DNA from: a virus
Virus record (IMG/VR): IMGVR_UViG_3300043427_000906
Coordinates: 1-60,217 of that record
Length of the DNA: 60,217 bases
Direction: 5' to 3' (one strand)
Of this stretch, positions 318 through 60,217 are shown piece by piece (within the stretch, counting starts at the first letter, position 1; every line of letters starts with the position of its first letter). A program made the translations under genes and the position numbers. The notes beneath the pieces are model-generated. The model did no database searches and was not told the DNA's origin. It worked only from the letters and a program-made list of their open reading frames with translations.

Positions 318-422
318 TTAAAACAATGTTGATGCGATAAGTAGGCAGATGCCAAACACCGCGATAAAATAGCAAAAACCTTCGATAATTTGTCTTGCTT
401 CGTTCGTAGTTTGATGCTTCAT
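318..422 (-). CDS. Single-pass membrane peptide, 34 aa
   Basis: It starts MKHQTTNEARQ and is followed by one hydrophobic helix of about 18 residues (CYFIAVFGICLLIASTLF) to the end. It would be a small inner-membrane protein, probably with the N-terminus in the cytoplasm. It lies directly downstream of the hammerhead ribozyme, so ribozyme cleavage would leave this gene with a short 5' leader. Its 3' part is repeated at 60119-60217. Function unknown. Confidence 0.55.
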   Translation of the reverse strand: MKHQTTNEARQIIEGFCYFIAVFGICLLIASTLF

Positions 423-434
423 AACTATGGGGTT

Positions 435-485
435 AGGTTTCGCCTTGCTGAGGCTCATCAGTACGGACAGCATATCCGTAGACCT
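435..485 (-). ncRNA. Hammerhead ribozyme, type III
   Basis: On the minus strand all core elements are present in order. Stem III 5' strand is AGGT (485-482), followed by cleavage nucleotide C at 481 (GTC site). Stem I is TACGGA/TCCGTA, closing a 7-nt loop (474-468). The core is CTGATGA (461-455). Stem II is GCCT/AGGC with loop CAGCA. GAAA is at 441-438, and the stem III 3' strand ACCT follows. The TGCTG part of loop I is fully complementary to loop II CAGCA, the kissing contact expected in natural fast-cleaving hammerheads. Cleavage should fall between 481 and 480. It sits between the origin region and the small early genes, upstream of the 34-aa membrane peptide. Confidence 0.92.
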
Positions 486-729
486 TGTCACTTACCGAGC
501 AGATACCAGTGATAAATCGACTGGCTCGTTAACCCGACCAGTGCAGACCTTTCGGCTCTCTGCACCCAACACCCTAACTTCGACTGGCGAAGGTTTGGCG
601 CGACCTAACGTGAACACTGGGAGTTGGTACGAAACCGCCAGTGTGCCTGATGTTTATTTGCTGAGGAGGGCATCCTCAAGTCCCATTCCCACTCTTCGTG
701 GTGGCTCACAACGTTTTACAACGGAAGGC
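486..729 (-). other. Hairpin-rich noncoding RNA region upstream of the hammerhead
   Basis: The minus strand holds a series of hairpins and no convincing gene. Examples are ACACTGG/CCAGTGT around 610-640, GTGCAGA/TCTGCAC around a GAAA tetraloop near 540-565, CTTCG/CGAAG near 580-595, CCAGT/ACTGG near 507-527, and GAGGA/TCCTC near 660-680. Base composition is much richer in GC than the neighbouring genes. I read it as a long structured RNA leader ending in the ribozyme. I could not match it to a named RNA family. Confidence 0.5.
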
Positions 730-912
730 TCATATCGGGACTATCGCTATGCATTTATCGTGGTTTGGTGACTGGCTATCCATCGTAAGCACCTTGTCGG
801 GTGGATGGGTAAGAGTGCGTTGCCCTAACACGTTGTAGCGAACATTTGAAAGAACTGCGGACTCATTGTCGAATCCGATGCAAACATAGGGTGGCAGGGT
901 AACTACTTCCAA
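730..912 (-). CDS. Doubtful 60-aa open frame with TTG start
   Basis: An open frame from a TTG at 912 would give a 60-residue protein with an internal MDSQSPNH. No family is recognised. The frame contains complementary segments (ATCCACC with GGTG and TGGAT), and its start codon would fall inside a possible -7 promoter box, so it may only be part of the structured RNA. Confidence 0.22.
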   Translation of the reverse strand: MEVVTLPPYVCIGFDNESAVLSNVRYNVLGQRTLTHPPDKVLTMDSQSPNHDKCIAIVPI

Positions 913-917
913 ATTTA
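910..917 (-). promoter_or_regulatory. Possible -7 box (TAAATTTG)
   Basis: This matches the Bacteroidetes TAnnTTTG element and points towards the structured RNA, hammerhead and small early genes. The nearest TTTG upstream is 25 bp away, further than the usual 19-21, so support is partial. Confidence 0.35.
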
Positions 918-1149: not shown

Positions 1150-1629
1150 CTAGAGCCGTTTATTCACTAGGTAGTTACGTAAGTAAGAAAGGTATTCACG
1201 TCCAGTAGAAGAGATAGAATAATACTTGCCTTCACGTATAAGCAAACCCAGTTGGACAAGAGTGTTAAGAGTGTTCCAACTATTGCGGACATCCGGCACA
1301 ACGACGTGGGGACGGAAGCCGTTAACGTATCCAGTCAGATGAGAGATAGAAGAACGACCAAGCCGACGCGAAGCATAGAGGTAACGCAACTGGGAGTCAC
1401 TGAGTGGACGAACACCGATGCGACGAGAAGCACGATAGTTTGCCGCATCCCCCATTAGATAGTATTTTTCCGGCTTCATTGGTTGGGTATTTTTACTGGT
1501 GGTAGGTTCATAAGGATGGTTGAATTGAAGAGGGGGAGGGGTGGCTACTGTATCTTTAAACACACACGCATAACCTACACATTCACAATATTTTACGAGC
1601 ATTATATGTAGTTCAGTTTCCCTATTCAT
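1150..1629 (-). CDS. Winged-helix DNA-binding protein next to the origin
   Basis: This is a 159-residue basic protein. The C-terminal half (about residues 85-155) has the pattern of a winged helix: a helix with SISHLTGYVNG, a longer helix NSWNTLNTLVQLGLL, then the wing IREGKYYSISSTGREYL. The first 60 residues look poorly ordered, and an internal Met before KPEKYY is an alternative start. The stop is followed within 5 bases by CCCCCGAAC, the same signature that opens the structured intergenic elements further along this strand. Its position beside repeats and DnaA boxes suggests an initiator or early regulator. That role is inferred. Confidence 0.6.
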   Translation of the reverse strand: MNRETELHIMLVKYCECVGYACVFKDTVATPPPLQFNHPYEPTTSKNTQPMKPEKYYLMGDAANYRASRRIGVRPLSDSQLRYLYASRRLGRSSISHLTGYVNGFRPHVVVPDVRNSWNTLNTLVQLGLLIREGKYYSISSTGREYLSYLRNYLVNKRL

Positions 1630-7564: not shown

Positions 7565-8166
7565 TACCAGAAGTTGAATATAAAAAGATGGAGTTTAATC
7601 CAACGGTTAAAAAACCGTTGTTTTCGTCGTACCCTAAATTAACCCAAATTTTAGGCAAAGCTGACGACAAGCTAACTCGTTATGTGTTACTTATGTATGA
7701 CATGAATTCGCCACTTCGTGAGTACTATCCAGAGATATCGAAGCGTAAGCAATTTGCTGCTTCTATTGCTGGATTTGATTTAGATACCGAAGACGTTACT
7801 GGCCTATTTGATTTTAAAGTAAAGGTTGATGATGACGAGGTACCTTATGAAGAACTTTTAAATCTAATTGTTAAGTATTTAAAATACCAGAATAACTATG
7901 TATGGTCAATGATCGTAAGTAACGAGCAGGCGTTCTATGAATTTAATAAGAGGGTTATGCTGCCGGTGGATGGTAATAGAGATAAGGATATCTTACAAGC
8001 AATTACTATCAAGACGCAGATTATGACAGCACAAGATGAGATTGTCCAAAGACTTCACCGGTATCTTCGTCAGCTTACTGGTGAGGATGACCAGTTAGAA
8101 GAAGCAATGACAAAACGTAAACGAATAAGACCGGAGGATATAGCCAATGTTCAGTCCAATAAATAA
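7561..8166 (+). CDS. Conserved protein before terminase (small terminase candidate)
   Basis: This protein of 201 residues starts at an ATG overlapping the preceding stop. It is mostly helical and has no recognised motif. It overlaps terL by 20 bases, and the position directly before the large subunit is where small terminases usually lie. No helix-turn-helix is obvious, so the role is inferred from position only. Confidence 0.5.
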   Translation: MIPEVEYKKMEFNPTVKKPLFSSYPKLTQILGKADDKLTRYVLLMYDMNSPLREYYPEISKRKQFAASIAGFDLDTEDVTGLFDFKVKVDDDEVPYEELLNLIVKYLKYQNNYVWSMIVSNEQAFYEFNKRVMLPVDGNRDKDILQAITIKTQIMTAQDEIVQRLHRYLRQLTGEDDQLEEAMTKRKRIRPEDIANVQSNK

Positions 8167-10150
8167 TGGTTCTAAAGAAAATATACAGGGGTTATTATGT
8201 TATACACCCCCACCCGGTTTTGTATTCAATATACTAAATGGGGAACTAGAGGAGCGATCTGTATACGCTAGGTCCCCAAAGAAGTCTGAACAGTATTTTG
8301 ATTATACTCCTTTGCCAAAGGATTATGCAAAGATTAGGGCTAAGGAGCAGCAAAGACAGAACGAGGACTCTGAGTATTTTGATCCTAAGCTGGAGCAATT
8401 TCGTCAGCAGGAGTGGGACCGTAGGCTTAATGGTTACTGGTTTTACAATAATGGCGTTCCCACATATATAACAGGGTTACACTATTTCTATTTAAATTAC
8501 TGGAATCTAGACACTGGATTACCAAAGTATAGGGACACTGATAGGAAATATTTTTATTTCATGCAGTACTGTATTGAAGATCCAGAGTGCATGGGTATGG
8601 TAGAGATTACTAAACGTAGGCAGGGTAAGACATTCCGTGGAGGTGTGTTCTTATATGAATATCCTTCTAGGACTAACAATGCAAAGTCTGGTATCCAGTC
8701 TAAGACAGGTGCAGATGCTAAGGAGGTGTTCCGTAAAGCTGTTATCCAACCATTTAAAAAACTTCCTGACTTCTTTGTTCCGATCTTTGATACGTCTAAG
8801 GGTTTAACCCCGACCTCCGAGCTTCGATTCTATCAAACTACTGTTAAGGGACGTAGAGCAAATACAATTAAGGATGAGCATGAGCTAGAGTCTGCAATAG
8901 ACTGGAAGACATCTGAAGCTATATCTTATGACGGCCAGAAGCTACATAGATACTTAGGAGATGAGGTTGGTAAGACAATGGAGGTTGATGTGTGGAATAG
9001 ATGGCTGGTTACAAAGTACTGTCATCTAGATGATGAGGGCCGTATTATAGGCAAGGCACTTCTTACTACAACAGTTGAGGATATGGAGCAGGGCGGTGCT
9101 TCTTTTAAAAAGATATGGGAGAACTCAGATCAGAATAATAAAAAGGGGAAAAGGACTGCATCTGGGCTTTATCGTTACTTCTGTAGCGCTGCAGAGACTA
9201 GATATTACAATGAATATGGCATAGCGGATAGGGCTAAGGCTGAGCAGGAGATTAGAGATGAAAGGAAGCTATTAGCCCACGACCCCCGAGCTTTAAGTTC
9301 TGTGATAAGAAAGGAGCCTATTGAGTGGGAAGAGGCATTCAGGATTGACGGTAGCAAGTGCTTATACAACCCTGAGTTACTGAACGAAAGAATGGATAGG
9401 TTAAGTTGGAAGGATAATTTGACAACAAGAGGTAACTTTGTGTGGCTTAATGGCGACCGAGACACTAGGGTTGTTTTTGAACCATCAAAGACTGGCCGGT
9501 GGGAGGTTTCAAAGCTATTTGAAAAGGAAGAGGAGAGCAACAATGTCAAAAGGGGTGGCGGTCTATTTTCCCCTGCTAACGGTTTGAACTTTGTTATTGG
9601 CGTGGACCCTGTGGACCACAACGTAACAGAAGATGGCAGGCGGTCTAATGGTGCTGGCATGGTACTACAGAAGTACAGCGCAGCTCGGGAGAACGACATC
9701 TATAACTACGCATTCGTTGCTAAGTACGCCTACCGTCCTGAGTCAGTCCAGATATTCTATGAGGATATGATTAAGATGGCCGTGTACTATGGTGCACCGG
9801 TATTGTTTGAGAACCAAAAGATTGGTCTCATGCACTACTTTGATGATAGGGGATATGCTCCATTCCTTATGTGGTTACCGGAAAGGAATCAGCCGGGTAT
9901 TGCGGCAAGTGCTAAAACGCACCAGCAGATAGCCGAGCTGACAGAGGATTATATCAACAAGATGTACGATCGGGTTTATTTTAAAGATCTGATCCAAGAC
10001 TGGCTAGAGTTTGATATATCCAAGACAACTAAGTTTGACTTGGCCATGGCAGCTGGGTACGCCCTAATCGCCGACCAAGTTAAAGTAAACGTGAAAGGAA
10101 CTGGTCAGATACGAGACGTGTCTGATTATTTTAGGAAGAATAAAATATAA
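8147..10150 (+). CDS. terL: Terminase large subunit
   Basis: This 667-residue packaging ATPase-nuclease has a Walker A-like KRRQGKTF at about residues 154-161, a Walker B-like HRYLGDEVG at about 266-274, and a TTT coupling segment near 305. The nuclease half contains FVIGVDPVDHN (about 480-490), NQKIG (about 562) and the last acidic residue in TTKFDLAMAAGYAL (about 627-640), matching the RNase H-like fold. It drives DNA into the prohead and cuts it. The length is typical of Bacteroidota podovirus-like phages. Portal follows after 2 bases. Confidence 0.92.
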   Translation: MFSPINNGSKENIQGLLCYTPPPGFVFNILNGELEERSVYARSPKKSEQYFDYTPLPKDYAKIRAKEQQRQNEDSEYFDPKLEQFRQQEWDRRLNGYWFYNNGVPTYITGLHYFYLNYWNLDTGLPKYRDTDRKYFYFMQYCIEDPECMGMVEITKRRQGKTFRGGVFLYEYPSRTNNAKSGIQSKTGADAKEVFRKAVIQPFKKLPDFFVPIFDTSKGLTPTSELRFYQTTVKGRRANTIKDEHELESAIDWKTSEAISYDGQKLHRYLGDEVGKTMEVDVWNRWLVTKYCHLDDEGRIIGKALLTTTVEDMEQGGASFKKIWENSDQNNKKGKRTASGLYRYFCSAAETRYYNEYGIADRAKAEQEIRDERKLLAHDPRALSSVIRKEPIEWEEAFRIDGSKCLYNPELLNERMDRLSWKDNLTTRGNFVWLNGDRDTRVVFEPSKTGRWEVSKLFEKEEESNNVKRGGGLFSPANGLNFVIGVDPVDHNVTEDGRRSNGAGMVLQKYSAARENDIYNYAFVAKYAYRPESVQIFYEDMIKMAVYYGAPVLFENQKIGLMHYFDDRGYAPFLMWLPERNQPGIAASAKTHQQIAELTEDYINKMYDRVYFKDLIQDWLEFDISKTTKFDLAMAAGYALIADQVKVNVKGTGQIRDVSDYFRKNKI

Positions 10151-10152
10151 AA

Positions 10153-12636
10153 ATGGACAAACTCCAGAAGACTGATTTCCCAAGTCACCTAATCGATCCA
10201 AGAGAAAAGGGTCGCGACTGGGTTCTTCAGTATTGTAAAGCAGCGTGGAGCTCTTTTGATAATGATCTACCACGCGAGATCTTTTACCATGCCCGCTACC
10301 GTTATGAGGTAATCATGCAGTATGCTGTTGGTAATCAATCAATTAATAAGTACAGACCTTTAATGCAAGTGGATGAAGCCTCTAACGAGGATTGGCTTAA
10401 TATCGACTGGTCTGTTATGCCAATTGTCCCAAAGTTTAGAAGAATCGCTTTAGGTAAATTAAACAAAGTTGGATATAATATTGTCGCTACTCCGATCGAC
10501 TCCTTGGCTAATGATGAAATTCAGGATTACTTTGCTAATCTTAAAGCTAAGATTCAGCTTCGTGAAGAAGCGGCCAAGCTTGACGCCTCATTGCTGGAAT
10601 CGCCAGCACTGCAGTTAATGCCTAATGAGGCAAAGGATATGGAGGAGCTAGAGATGCAGATGAACTACACGTTCAAGCATCAGATGGCTATTGAGGCAGA
10701 GCAGGGGATTAAACTTGTACTTGAGCAGAATCAGATCGAAAAGCTTCGTGAAGGTGTGCGTCAGGATTTGTTTGACTACGGAGTCGCTGGGTATAAAGAA
10801 TATATTGATAGTAATGGTGCTGTTAAAGTTAGAAAGGTAAACCCTAGAAATATTCTTATAAACAATTGTAAGAATAAAGATTTCTCCGATGCTTCTTATA
10901 TTGGTGAGATAACAGAGATGAGCATATCTGATTTAAAGCAGATGGCTGGTCATCAGTTTAGCGAAGAGGAGTATGAAGAAATTGCTAAGAAACATGTAGG
11001 TTATCTAGGTAATCCATCTGAATGGCCTTCTTCATTATCTGTATATAATAAGGGTTATGATAGATTCAGGATTCGTGTACTTGATTTGGAGTTCTTTTCT
11101 GTCAATGAGATGGTTTTTGAAAGTCGTATTGATCGCCGTGGTAATAAGGTTTATGCTCGGGGAAAGTATGATGAGAAGAATAAAAGAAAAGATAAGTTTG
11201 AGCGTGTAGCATACAAGGTAGTATATAAAGGTAAATGGATTGTTGGTACAGACTATTTATTTGATTATGGTCTTTGTACTAATATGAAGCGTGCTAAGTC
11301 GTCTCTCATGGATACACAGTTGAGTTATCACTTGATTGCTCCTGAGTTCTGGGATATGAAGGCTTATGGCATTATGCAGCACTTGATACCAATGGCTGAT
11401 GCTATTCAGATTGCATGGTATCGTTTGCAAAATGCAATCAATCAGGCTAGACCTAAAGGTATTATGATCGAGATGGGCGCACTAGAGGATATCCCACTTG
11501 GTGCTGGCGGTAAGAGATTAACGCCAATGAAGGTATTAGATCTTTACAACAAGACTGGTACATTGGTTTATCGTAAGAGCGATCAACAGGGACGTATGAC
11601 CAACTACAAGCCAATCGAAGAGTTGGAGAATGGGTTAGGTCGTGATGCAATGAATTACTGGCAGATCATTCAAAATAATATCCAGCTCATCCGCGATGTA
11701 ACTGGTATGAATGAAATGACTGATGGCTCTACCCCAGATCCTCGCACATTAACTACTGTAGCTAAGCTTGCTTATGAGGGTACTAATAATGCATTGACAA
11801 GTATTGTGCATGGTGAGAAGCAGTTATTAGAATCGTTATCTAATGCTGTTATATTAAGACTACAGGATGTTTCTTCTAGTGGTGAGGTTAAGGGTTATGT
11901 TCGTGCTCTTGGGTCTAACACTATGAAGTTCTTTAAGGCTTCTCCGCATTTAGCTCTATATGAGTTTGGTATATTCTTAGAGGATAAGCCAACAGACGAT
12001 GAGCGTGCTATGTTGCAGCAGCAAGTAATGGCTGGTCAGGCTAATGGCTTATTAGACATAGAGGATGCTATTATTATTCAGAATACCGATAACCTAAAGG
12101 TTGCTCAGCAGCTGCTTGCATATAAGATTAAAAAACGCCGTCAAGAAGAAGAGGATAAAGCAATGCGCATGCAGCAAATGAATGCACAGGTGCAACAGCA
12201 ATCCGCAATGGTAGCTGAACAAGCTAAGCAACAGACCATTCAAACAGAAGGTCAAGTTAAGAGCCAGCTTATCCAGTTAGAAAAGGAATACGATGCTAAG
12301 ATCTTAGAGATGAAATATAGCTATGAGATCGAGCTAGAGAAGATGCGTATGCAGGGCAAGGTTGAAACCAAGAAGGTAGAGAACAAGGGTAAGAAGAGTG
12401 TTACTAAGATAAAGATGGGTCAACCTGATACAGATGTTGAAGAGCCTGCAGAAACAATGGCTGTTGGGCAAGAGATGTTAATGGTACCTCAACAACCTAT
12501 AGAGCAGCCTACGCAACAGCAGATGATGCCAGAGCAGATGATGCTAGATCAGGAAATGCCAGAGGCAGAAGAAGAGGTAGAAGAAGTAGAAGAAATAGAA
12601 GAAGAAGGTGGAGAGATGGAGGGGGAGGAAAAATAA
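10153..12636 (+). CDS. Portal protein
   Basis: This 827-residue protein lies immediately after terminase. The body (to about residue 640) has the helix-rich pattern of portal subunits, including a long stem-like segment. The C-terminus is low complexity: a Q/M-rich coiled-coil-like part (about 660-760), then an almost purely acidic tail rich in E. It forms the dodecameric ring at the capsid vertex. Family assignment is based on position, size and general similarity to portals of crAss-like and related phages. Confidence 0.82.
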   Translation: MDKLQKTDFPSHLIDPREKGRDWVLQYCKAAWSSFDNDLPREIFYHARYRYEVIMQYAVGNQSINKYRPLMQVDEASNEDWLNIDWSVMPIVPKFRRIALGKLNKVGYNIVATPIDSLANDEIQDYFANLKAKIQLREEAAKLDASLLESPALQLMPNEAKDMEELEMQMNYTFKHQMAIEAEQGIKLVLEQNQIEKLREGVRQDLFDYGVAGYKEYIDSNGAVKVRKVNPRNILINNCKNKDFSDASYIGEITEMSISDLKQMAGHQFSEEEYEEIAKKHVGYLGNPSEWPSSLSVYNKGYDRFRIRVLDLEFFSVNEMVFESRIDRRGNKVYARGKYDEKNKRKDKFERVAYKVVYKGKWIVGTDYLFDYGLCTNMKRAKSSLMDTQLSYHLIAPEFWDMKAYGIMQHLIPMADAIQIAWYRLQNAINQARPKGIMIEMGALEDIPLGAGGKRLTPMKVLDLYNKTGTLVYRKSDQQGRMTNYKPIEELENGLGRDAMNYWQIIQNNIQLIRDVTGMNEMTDGSTPDPRTLTTVAKLAYEGTNNALTSIVHGEKQLLESLSNAVILRLQDVSSSGEVKGYVRALGSNTMKFFKASPHLALYEFGIFLEDKPTDDERAMLQQQVMAGQANGLLDIEDAIIIQNTDNLKVAQQLLAYKIKKRRQEEEDKAMRMQQMNAQVQQQSAMVAEQAKQQTIQTEGQVKSQLIQLEKEYDAKILEMKYSYEIELEKMRMQGKVETKKVENKGKKSVTKIKMGQPDTDVEEPAETMAVGQEMLMVPQQPIEQPTQQQMMPEQMMLDQEMPEAEEEVEEVEEIEEEGGEMEGEEK

Positions 12637-16113: not shown

Positions 16114-17289
16114 ATGCCCATGATATCTAATATGTCTTTTGGGGTCAAATTTGATCTTGATGGCATACCTACGCTAGTTCTTACGGATACTACCACATCT
16201 CCACCTGTTGGGTTTGTGGGCATATTCTCTATTACTCAGCCAGATGGCTACACACGAACTGGGAATATTTCTAGCCCAGATATACCATCAGCAGGTTCTA
16301 GCTTTTCATATGTTTTAACACTAGACTCAACAGGTCAGGTACAGCGTGGTTCATACACGATTGTGTTTACGGGGGCGGCTCCGGGGTATATATCTACAGA
16401 TTTCAATAGGACGTTCCAGTTTCAATACTTACCAGTTACCTTAAGCCTTACAGAAGAGTTTGATGTATTTACGCCGAAACTTGAATATATAGATTCAACT
16501 GTTTATCAAGTAGCTAACTATAATAACACATCTGTAACAAGAGCTTGGACGGCTGTATCTACACCAACAGGAACTATAACTGGTAATACTTCTACGTTTG
16601 ATGTTAAATATCTAAACCAGTATTGGGATGCCTATTATACAATTACATTAAGCGCTAGTACTGTCTATACACATCAGGTGTATTCTTGGTTAACTGTAGA
16701 GGAGACTATTACTAAATCAGTATCTACATATGCAGAAACTCCTAAGACGCTTCTGCAGATAATCACACTTATTAGTGCGCTTAAAACAAAAGTAGATCTA
16801 GCGGTAGATACGGTTTCTAATCTAGAGCAGGTTAAGGAAGACTTTGAATATGCGCAGAGCTTACTTGTGCATATTATAGATAAGCTGAAAGTTAACAATC
16901 TAGCTAACATAGATCGTGATCTAAAGGATCTATTAGCCGTATTGCATAACTATCAAATACCAACATACGTACCAACAAACTTACCAATACCGCCATATAA
17001 CTGGAGTGCATACAATACAGTTGCTTGGGGTAACATAACTGGTAATATACAAAACCAAACCGATCTATGGACTATTCTTCAGACGCTAACAGTACAGAAT
17101 AATTATGTGCATGATCAGCAAGTAGCAAGTGCTTCTTGGGTTATAGTTCATAATATGGGGAAGAAGCCAAGTGTTAGTATTGTAGATACTGCGGATGATG
17201 AAGTAATTGCAAAAGTAACTTATAACTCTAATAATCAAGTAACATTAACTTTTTCTTCTCCAATTAGCGGGAAGGCATATTTAAATTAA
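16114..17289 (+). CDS. Tail fibre or baseplate-type protein
   Basis: This 391-residue protein is beta-rich and Ser/Thr-rich in its first half. A helical, coiled-coil-like part lies at about 210-285. The C-terminal 50 residues (WVIVHNMGKKPSVSIVD ... SGKAYLN) match the small C-terminal domain common in phage tail fibres and upper baseplate proteins. It begins a cluster of fibre genes after a terminator and -7 box. Confidence 0.75.
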   Translation: MPMISNMSFGVKFDLDGIPTLVLTDTTTSPPVGFVGIFSITQPDGYTRTGNISSPDIPSAGSSFSYVLTLDSTGQVQRGSYTIVFTGAAPGYISTDFNRTFQFQYLPVTLSLTEEFDVFTPKLEYIDSTVYQVANYNNTSVTRAWTAVSTPTGTITGNTSTFDVKYLNQYWDAYYTITLSASTVYTHQVYSWLTVEETITKSVSTYAETPKTLLQIITLISALKTKVDLAVDTVSNLEQVKEDFEYAQSLLVHIIDKLKVNNLANIDRDLKDLLAVLHNYQIPTYVPTNLPIPPYNWSAYNTVAWGNITGNIQNQTDLWTILQTLTVQNNYVHDQQVASASWVIVHNMGKKPSVSIVDTADDEVIAKVTYNSNNQVTLTFSSPISGKAYLN

Positions 17290-55970: not shown

Positions 55971-56024
55971 GGAACTGCATCGGTCACGAGCCGATAGTCA
56001 AGCGGTCTTGAGCAGTTCGGGGGA
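55971..56024 (-). ncRNA. Intergenic minihelix element 2
   Basis: It opens one base after the stop at 56025 with CCCCCGAACTGC. The outer stem GAACTGC/GCAGTTC is 7 bp. Inside are TCAAG-ACCG-CTTGA and then ATCGG-CTCGTGA-CCGAT, i.e. a 5-bp arm with a 7-nt loop stacked on the 7-bp stem, exactly acceptor plus T-arm size. It leads into CTCACCAAAA before the next ATG. Confidence 0.7.
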
Positions 56025-57242: not shown

Positions 57243-57285
57243 GAACTGCCGGAGGAATCGAACCTCCGTAAGACCATCGCAGTTC
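57243..57285 (-). ncRNA. Intergenic minihelix element 3b, tRNA T-arm-like
   Basis: GAACTGC/GCAGTTC (7 bp) is joined by the 10-nt linker GATGGTCTTA to CGGAGG-TTCGATT-CCTCCG, whose 7-nt loop is a canonical tRNA T-loop. Total 13 stacked base pairs. The same 10-nt linker occurs in element 6. D and anticodon arms are missing, so it is not a tRNA. Confidence 0.75.
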
Positions 57286-58282: not shown

Positions 58283-58328
58283 GAACTGAGGGTGGTAACG
58301 AACCACCTTCGCACGTTGCTCTCAGTTC
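58283..58328 (-). ncRNA. Intergenic minihelix element 5, acceptor/T-arm geometry
   Basis: One base after the stop at 58335 comes CCCCCGAACTGAG. AACTGAG/CTCAGTT (7 bp) stacks on GGTGG-TTCGTTA-CCACC (5 bp, 7-nt loop). The 13-nt linker is A-GC-AACGT-GC-GAA. Element 7 has the same linker layout with changed pairs, so the small inner hairpin covaries. The leader CTCACCAAATC and the next ATG follow. Confidence 0.78.
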
Positions 58329-58334
58329 GGGGGA

Positions 58335-58820
58335 TTAAAACTCCCAGTCATAGTGATACTCTGCAACACCGAAGAGGATATTAACCTTATCGAATGACTT
58401 CTTGACTTTAGTCACTCCATCAATCAATCGAAGGTCACCTCTATCATCCCATACGTTAAGTAGCTTCTGCGCATCCCATAACTCCTCTCTAGTGGCGAAA
58501 GAATTGTACCAATCATCGTTGAATACAATCATATTGCACTCTTTCCTCCACGCACGATTGCGGTATACTAAGGTATGCTTGGGGGCAGATAGGTCGGGGG
58601 TAATATCCCACTCTTGATGTCCCATACCTTCGCCTATCGCTTTATGCTTCATCGCTCTAATTACGCACCTCTTACCATCATTAGATACCTCTAGCACCTC
58701 GTAAGGGTATCGGTCGGAATACATTAGCAGAGTAGCACCTTTGCCTACTTCGGGAACGGATGAATTGTTGCCCATTAGGTAGTTGGTGAAGCTACCTTCT
58801 AGTTTTCTTTTTTGTCTCAT
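58335..58820 (-). CDS. Hypothetical protein, 161 aa
   Basis: Beta-rich, with YPYEVLEVSNDGKRCVIRAM (about residues 38-57) and a late WRKECNMIVFNDDW. No family recognised. It lies between elements 6 and 5. Confidence 0.6.
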   Translation of the reverse strand: MRQKRKLEGSFTNYLMGNNSSVPEVGKGATLLMYSDRYPYEVLEVSNDGKRCVIRAMKHKAIGEGMGHQEWDITPDLSAPKHTLVYRNRAWRKECNMIVFNDDWYNSFATREELWDAQKLLNVWDDRGDLRLIDGVTKVKKSFDKVNILFGVAEYHYDWEF

Positions 58821-58839: not shown

Positions 58840-58882
58840 TAACTGGGAGGGGAGTCGAACCCCTCCTAAGACCATCCAGTTA
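58840..58882 (-). ncRNA. Intergenic minihelix element 6, tRNA T-arm-like
   Basis: TAACTG/CAGTTA (6 bp), linker GATGGTCTTA, then GGAGGGG-TTCGACT-CCCCTCC (7 bp, canonical T-loop). The stop codon TAA of the gene at 58880-59641 forms part of the 5' strand, so translation termination and folding are linked. Confidence 0.75.
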
Positions 58883-59795: not shown

Positions 59796-59983
59796 AAGGA
59801 TAAATTTGCTTGTCTACAAATGCGCTCCCATTTTAGGTCTCGGAGCAATTGCTTAGAATCACCGCCAATTTCGTTGAGAATCTGCCTTACCCTATTATGG
59901 GTGGAGATGGTAACCTCAGTACGGCGGATGAGCTGACCATTGGTCTTGGATGTGAATAACGGCATTTTTTTACGCGTTCTCAT
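59792..59983 (-). CDS. Small basic protein, 63 aa
   Basis: Basic, with HNRVRQILNEIGGDSKQLLRDLKWERI as two helices. Could bind nucleic acid. A second Met (residue 7) is an alternative start. In this copy its start directly abuts the shortened 43-aa gene. Confidence 0.6.
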   Translation of the reverse strand: MRTRKKMPLFTSKTNGQLIRRTEVTISTHNRVRQILNEIGGDSKQLLRDLKWERICRQANLSL

Positions 59984-60101
59984 GGGTAGGAGATTTTAAG
60001 ATGATTGAATCGGATTCGAATTTTACTATAGCCCATCCTAAGTACATTAGTTGGGCGGCAAGTTTCTGACCACTGAGGGTGGTTAGGTCGATTGTCTGCA
60101 T
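59970..60101 (-). CDS. Small protein, 43 aa (variant of the 44-aa protein)
   Basis: MQTIDLTTLSGQKLAAQ and onward match the protein at 166-300, but the end is THENA. The last three codons come from the deleted 57-aa gene frame. Confidence 0.6.
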   Translation of the reverse strand: MQTIDLTTLSGQKLAAQLMYLGWAIVKFESDSIILKSPTHENA

Positions 60102-60118
60102 AACTGATTTTTAAATGA

Positions 60119-60217
60119 TTAAAACAATGTTGATGCGATAAGTAGGCAGATGCCAAACACCGCGATAAAATAGCAAAAACCTTCGATAATTTGTCTTGCT
60201 TCGTTCGTAGTTTGATG
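60119..60217 (-). CDS. C-terminal part of the 34-aa membrane peptide (second copy)
   Basis: It is identical in sequence to part of 318-422 and enters from beyond the window end. Confidence 0.55.
   Translation of the reverse strand, partial: HQTTNEARQIIEGFCYFIAVFGICLLIASTLF

Follow-up and report, generated by a model that had tools for sequence, protein, structure and literature searches.

Transcripts are cut in mitochondria at tRNA-shaped sites that lie between the genes of a long RNA, an arrangement known as tRNA punctuation. In phages and prophages, Perreault et al. (2011) described clustered hammerhead ribozymes lying in one orientation around single genes, and proposed that long phage transcripts are thereby cut into gene-length mRNAs (PMC3088659). 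Tandem arrays cleaved in vitro, one was cleaved in E. coli, and hammerhead loop pseudoknots were described in the same study. HHphage, a hammerhead variant of haloviruses HF1 and HF2, lies 13 nt ahead of the gene that opens an early polycistron, with a mapped 5′ end no more than 3 nt from the cleavage site (PMC3088659). Kienbeck et al. (2024) found theta (HDV-like) ribozymes beside phage tRNAs and proposed that they mature the 3′ end of the real tRNA (PMC10879173). A 2017 review listed the role of prokaryotic hammerheads as open (PMC6155905).

We analyzed a viral sequence of 60,217 nt, hereafter the window (IMG/VR record IMGVR_UViG_3300043427_000906, positions 1 to 60,217). As in the clusters described earlier, several cutters of the same orientation are found around single genes, but here a single type III hammerhead holds the same position across a phage group, where a conserved leader ends, and at homologous gene borders hammerheads give way to tRNA-like minihelices. 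Unlike mitochondrial punctuation, the arrangement belongs to a phage, its minihelices lack a D stem and an anticodon arm, and they are mixed with ribozymes. The HF1/HF2 elements differ in their archaeal viruses and variant core, and no leader domain or tRNA-like elements were reported with them in PMC3088659. The theta system also associates a phage self-cleaving ribozyme with tRNA-type RNA (PMC10879173), whereas ribozyme and tRNA-like element are here alternatives in mRNA spacers; a ribozyme cut site at a tRNA 3′ end was not found in the window, which has neither a tRNA called by ARAGORN nor an HDV-like Rfam match. Our main reading, to which we assign a probability of roughly 0.78, is that the leader-ending hammerhead and the spacer cutters dice a polycistronic early RNA and free the leader, with catalysis, enzyme cleavage, timing and benefit all inferred. 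In the open-access literature we found no report of hammerhead/tRNA-like exchange or phage tRNA punctuation, nor of a type III hammerhead fixed at the end of a conserved phage leader. The exchange and the conserved leader family appear to be new; phage hammerheads themselves are already published.

The hammerhead is on the minus strand, read from 485 to 435:

435-485, minus strand: type III hammerhead ribozyme (Rfam model match, core search, alignment covariation, loop test)
468-472, minus strand: loop I, UGCUG, pairing with loop II (sequence, loop test)
446-450, minus strand: loop II, CAGCA (sequence, loop test)

On this strand, 486-435 reads AAGGUC UACGGAUAUGCUGUCCGUA CUGAUGA GCCUCAGCAAGGC GAAACCU, which divides into AGGU-C / UACGGA UAUGCUG UCCGUA - CUGAUGA - GCC UCAGCAA GGC - GAAA - CCU, with the cut after C17 (position 481). 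A sequence-only reading had claimed a complete type III hammerhead, and the full CUGANGA...GAAA core (C3 to A9 at 461-455, GAAA at 441-438), the NUH cleavage triplet (GUC at 483-481) and the stem order are indeed all present. Stem I pairs 480-475 with 467-462, stem II pairs 454-452 with 444-442 and adds U451-A445, and stem III consists of A485-U435, G484-C436, G483-C437 and U482-A438. Full complementarity of the loops, also claimed, was confirmed, with 5 complementary bases between 472-468 and 450-446. Scission is predicted from sequence at the 481/480 junction, and would leave a 2′,3′-cyclic phosphate on 481 and a 5′-OH on 480. The earlier reading left the strand unnamed; the 5′ end that it expected at 480 matches this cut and fits no strand but the minus. 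Its residue numbering was right in placing G5 at 459 and wrong in placing a G at 457, which is U7, G8 being 456 and G12 441. On these grounds, 485-435 is confirmed as a genuine, canonical type III hammerhead, with cleavage inferred.

The alignment to the Rfam Hammerhead_3 model (RF00008) covers the whole of that model (39.4 bits, E = 1.8e-6). This score is below the curated gathering cut-off of 48.5 bits, and for that reason a routine whole-window Rfam scan at gathering cut-offs reported no match. No relative tested passes the RF00008 gathering score either. A CTGANGA-N13-GAAA core without mismatches occurs once in the whole window. The core, three-stem junction, NUH site, stem order and pairing between the stem I and stem II loops are those of RF00008 type III ribozymes with a loop pseudoknot (PMC3088659); the differences are the low score, a short stem III (4 bp in the window, 3 in some relatives) and, in L006 and L024, an extra U between A9 and stem II. 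Because stem III has only 4 bp, activity probably depends on the loop contact, cleavage itself being inferred. Folding energy was weakly better than in shuffles for the ribozyme (z -1.0) and not better for the leader described below (z -0.24), and these scores support neither side. Other Rfam ribozymes (theta/HDV-like, twister, pistol) were considered for the window and gave no match in Rfam scans.

For comparison, terminase relatives were gathered from viral contigs. Nearly all of the closest carry a type III hammerhead at the same place and on the same strand, upstream of the structural gene block and directly before the first ORF of the opposite operon, and its distance to the ATG is likewise kept. 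We aligned 16 phage sequences, comprising the window, terminase relatives and three further phages. Loss of the core in close relatives had been named beforehand as an outcome that would refute the ribozyme; the core is invariant in all 16, and the stems covary. Compensatory changes that keep pairing occur in 13 of 15 base pairs and in all three helices, arranged about the core and open at stem III, and 95.8% of alignment cells are paired. The covariation score is 0.77, against 0.18 in shuffles (0 of 500 reach the observed value), and falls below 0.11 when the pairing partner is slid. Cleavage triplets among relatives are GUC, GUA, GUU or AUC. Cognate loops I and II are more complementary than reshuffled pairs (P = 0.0006, 15 distinct pairs), and a contact of at least 5 loop-loop pairs is present in only 3 of 16 sequences (the window, L013 and L205), so that the family as a whole does not share a pairing of about 5 bp. 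No clear type III hammerhead was seen in at least four of the related contigs searched (G007, G009, L018 and L021), and it is thus not indispensable. A descriptor scan found 23 hammerheads in 0.79 Mb of the phage group and none in 2.37 Mb of Markov-randomized sequence. The Rfam score under the curated cut-off and the lack of biochemical data would allow the hammerhead to be an inactive chance or vestigial likeness, but with an invariant core, massive covariation over 16 sequences and no match in 2.37 Mb of random sequence we give that idea almost no credence.

The region on either side of the ribozyme contains the following features:

881-913, minus strand: promoter of Bacteroidota type, TTTG-N21-TATGTTTG (sequence match), with a predicted transcription start at about 874
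481-874, minus strand: non-coding structured leader of about 390 nt (alignments, homology), its 3′ end at the ribozyme cleavage site
540-601, minus strand: conserved leader domain of four helices (601-597/573-569, 592-588/582-578, 566-560/546-540 and 555-554/549-548)
318-422, minus strand: first ORF after the ribozyme, 34 aa with one hydrophobic segment (ORF list); short first ORFs recur in relatives

The promoter was identified by the Bacteroidota consensus, and of the 16 sequences checked, 11 have a strict TTTG-N21-TAnnTTTG ahead of the ribozyme. The leader opens at its 5′ end with a 7-bp hairpin (CGGAUUC..GAGUCCG). No notable ORF lies between about 874 and 481, and the longest ATG ORF in the 400 nt upstream has 22 aa. 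In the conserved domain, 10 of 19 pairs show compensatory changes across 9 sequences, 98.2% of cells are paired, and none of 500 shuffles matches this. A covariance model of the domain (R2) matches the same 9 phages, with no other good match among 55 loci, and no Rfam family matched the leader to E ≤ 5. The ATG of the 34-aa ORF is 12 nt past the ribozyme; its sequence is not conserved, and first ORFs differ among relatives. The ribozyme had been placed between a hairpin-rich leader and a 34-aa membrane-peptide ORF, and this placement was verified, their separation by self-cleavage being inferred. That the transcript is early, as was also claimed, has not been shown; it is inferred from the Bacteroidota-type promoter and the replication and recombination genes on the minus strand, and the transcript is probably early.

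Leader and ribozyme are separable, since each occurs without the other in relatives. L208 has retained the leader domain, which ends there in AUGGUCUUAACC, but lacks a type III core, and the ribozyme follows other leaders, unrelated or partly related, in L004/L008, L012, L016/L195 and L274/L289. This bears on the possibility that the leader is the main product, with the hammerhead making the 3′ end of a trans-acting phage regulatory RNA and mRNA processing as a by-product. A non-coding leader with its own strong promoter, a covarying domain whose conservation does not depend on the genes downstream, and first ORFs that vary between relatives all speak for such an RNA. The ribozyme is nevertheless kept more widely than this leader, as in the contigs just named and in Elemovirus phages, and hammerheads are also found in spacers without a leader; we therefore hold this explanation to be possible but doubtful. 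Leader and ribozyme could instead form a cis-acting switch (riboswitch- or aptazyme-like) in which the fold of the leader governs cutting and, through it, operon expression, or the cut could release an antitermination leader, and a structured RNA directly upstream of a promoter-proximal site ahead of the whole operon would suit either role. We consider this unlikely, as leader and ribozyme showed no conserved alternative pairing with each other, several different leaders precede the ribozyme, and type I copies elsewhere stand alone.

Several further observations concern the leader region. In L208, the AUGGUCUUAACC at 7975 (plus strand) is the half of a type I hammerhead that serves as substrate, with no core; it may be a relic, or the ribozymes downstream may cleave it in trans. 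L004 and L008 carry a different conserved leader block (GGCAUCAGUAGUCACCUACCGCCCUCUCCUCCGU...) in place of the 601-540 domain, and the type III hammerhead after it is the same. Immediately ahead of the leader promoter, AATGCTAAAGAAATTAG occurs twice at 1072-1124 as direct repeats with CTAA-N-TTAG palindromes; similar TTAGC/GCTAA repeats lie upstream of the leader in relatives, and the repeats at 1072-1124 are possible operators. An ORF at 1150-1629 (minus strand), upstream of the leader, has a C-terminus (GREYLSYLRNYLVNKRL) also found ahead of the leader in relatives; it has no Pfam or PHROGs match, and its product is perhaps a small regulator. A 114-aa ORF at 427-771 on the plus strand overlaps leader and ribozyme, but it has no family match and is best read as spurious.

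The main reading, in which the hammerhead is one of several cutters of a polycistron, draws on the intergenic spacers of the window, which hold on the minus strand, besides the single hammerhead, four minihelices that are putative cutting elements:

58840-58882, minus strand: tRNA-like minihelix with a 7-bp acceptor-like stem, a D-loop-like GG and a 5-bp T-arm (UUCGACU), upstream of the ORF that starts at 58820
58284-58327, minus strand: tRNA-like minihelix in a spacer (minihelix scan)
57243-57285, minus strand: tRNA-like minihelix (minihelix scan), ATG 19 nt downstream
55972-56018, minus strand: tRNA-like minihelix in a spacer (minihelix scan)

The tRNA-like elements had been described as running in the same direction as the hammerhead, and they are real, occupying minus-strand spacers within the same block of genes. 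In each, a 7-bp acceptor-like stem is stacked on a T-arm of 5 bp with a UUCGANU-type loop, the D and anticodon arms having shrunk to a short linker, often GAUGGU. The T-arm at 58840-58882 matches the tmRNA model. No CCA is encoded. ARAGORN called no tRNA gene in the window and did not report the minihelices, which are presumably sites for RNase P and/or RNase Z, enzyme cleavage being assumed. Relatives carry up to eight minihelices, and shuffled genomes about 0.1 each. The window minihelices are often preceded by CCCCCGAACUG, and the same kind is present in at least 10 relatives.

A constant stem I (GGUUAA/UUAACC) characterizes the type I hammerheads found in such spacers of G010, G014 and, above all, G023; L208/G023 carries eight, one spacer after another across 3 kb, and has no minihelix:

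L208 (IMGVR_UViG_3300005528_000090) 8206-11090, plus strand: eight hammerheads of type I and, near 10893, a ninth that is degenerate

The calls across 16 contigs comprised 10 hammerheads of type I, 13 of type III, and 43 minihelices. An ATG lies 6-36 nt downstream of 60 of the 63 cutters that have a downstream ORF, compared with 22% of random positions in the same stretches; the distance is about 12 nt for type III, 13-16 nt for type I and, in most cases, 14-20 nt for minihelices. For three minihelix calls the 6-36 nt range contains no ATG, and one call, at G013 minus 7690, looks false. In other viral loci with at least two hammerheads, all copies are on one strand (41 of 41). We also considered that type I cores might cleave the GGUC of minihelices in trans, GAUGGUC being present in both; the motif fits a remnant of the D-loop and the window has no type I core, and the idea was dropped. 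Successive same-strand hammerheads flank single genes in L012, L016 and L208, and pairs of this kind could excise RNA segments that are then circularized. We regard excision as very improbable: the window contains a single hammerhead, a second that could complete a pair having been sought and not found; minihelices occupy equivalent borders; and circular or spliced products of the arrays were sought by Perreault et al. (2011) and not detected (PMC3088659).

The dicing of a polycistron finds its main support in the genes that follow the cutters. These were clustered to find homologs preceded by different cutter types, and five homologous pairs, with 33-61% protein identity, have a hammerhead before one member and a minihelix before the other:

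G023 9042 (type I) and L007 3329 (minihelix): 58% identity
G023 9737 (type I) and G013 3519 (minihelix): 47% identity
L324 1658 (type I) and G021 24164 (minihelix): 61% identity
G023 10253 (type I) and L127 6618 (minihelix): 41% identity
L195 7971 (type III) and L154 12182 (minihelix): 33% identity

The minihelix at L007 3329 was recognized by eye and has a mismatch in its T-arm; some pairs are distant (33-47% identity), and the operons of the relatives are heavily shuffled. Because five homologous borders have one type in one phage and the other type in another, hammerheads and minihelices look interchangeable, as far as sequence comparison can tell. We take this exchange as the strongest evidence on function, since the two devices are unrelated and their sole evident common trait is an RNA cut near the same site. 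Elements that replace each other at homologous borders, and almost always stand immediately ahead of a start codon, provide comparative evidence that selection acts on the cut itself. If this is true, replacement of a ribozyme by a tRNA-like element shows that precise cutting before start codons is the selected function of phage hammerheads.

In the proposed mechanism, the promoter at 881-913 would start a long minus-strand transcript, probably early, whose first ~390 nt would be the structured non-coding leader. The type III hammerhead is predicted to fold on transcription and to cut at 481/480, an inferred step that would free the leader with a 2′,3′-cyclic phosphate at its 3′ end and give the downstream mRNA a 5′-OH end capped by the two hairpins of the ribozyme, 12 nt before the first start codon. 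Further down, minihelices, as presumed RNase P and/or RNase Z sites, would split the same transcript, as would type I hammerheads in relatives, and the polycistron would thereby become mRNAs of one or a few genes. The inferred benefit may be defined, nuclease-resistant mRNA ends and uncoupled decay of single messages. Sequence, conserved structure, position, strand and the exchange of cutter types at homologous borders are the parts of this scheme that were observed directly. Whether a group of Bacteroidota phages punctuates its early polycistron with functionally interchangeable hammerheads and enzyme-cut minihelices, a promoter-proximal hammerhead releasing the leader as a separate phage RNA, we judge to be an even bet.

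The system is also present in cultivated phages with a known host, the Elemovirus phages of Flavobacterium sp. BAL314, whose terminase is ~30% identical to that of the window phage. In 5 of 5 genomes checked, a TTTG-N19-TATATTTG promoter is followed by a leader of <200 nt, a type III hammerhead and, shortly after, an ATG; a type I hammerhead also occupies the spacer that precedes the MRAKQV gene. In NC_055854, the type III site is on the minus strand directly upstream of 18126, and the type I site is near 16355. Compensatory changes distinguish stem II of the type I copy in elemoE from that in elemoA/B. In NC_055855 (elemoD) and NC_055853 (elemoF), the type I copy before the MRAKQV gene has a mismatched stem II, with one half of each version; it looks recombinant between elemoE and elemoA/B and is probably a natural loss-of-function variant. 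As cultivated phages carry it, with naturally intact and broken stem II variants, the system is directly testable. No ribozyme is listed in the parts examined of the Elemovirus annotation tables, and the parts searched of MW202828, Panino, phi13:2 and phi40:1 contained no hammerheads. Hammerheads of the whole phage group score under the gathering thresholds of Rfam RF00008 and RF00163, and annotation pipelines overlook them for this reason; standard thresholds miss every one of these ribozymes. No relative of the window at the DNA level was found among isolated phages, nor any relative in host genomes searched with a TerL alignment, and the host is inferred solely from isolates whose terminases are ~30% identical and from the type of promoter.

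The two ends of the record share sequence: 59980-60217 is a 98% match to 179-416, and the stretch from 59961 onwards corresponds to 1-37. The overlap (1-416 versus 59961-60217) holds an indel of ~178 bp with one small ORF, and the overlapping ends suggest a circular or circularly permuted genome with strain variation.
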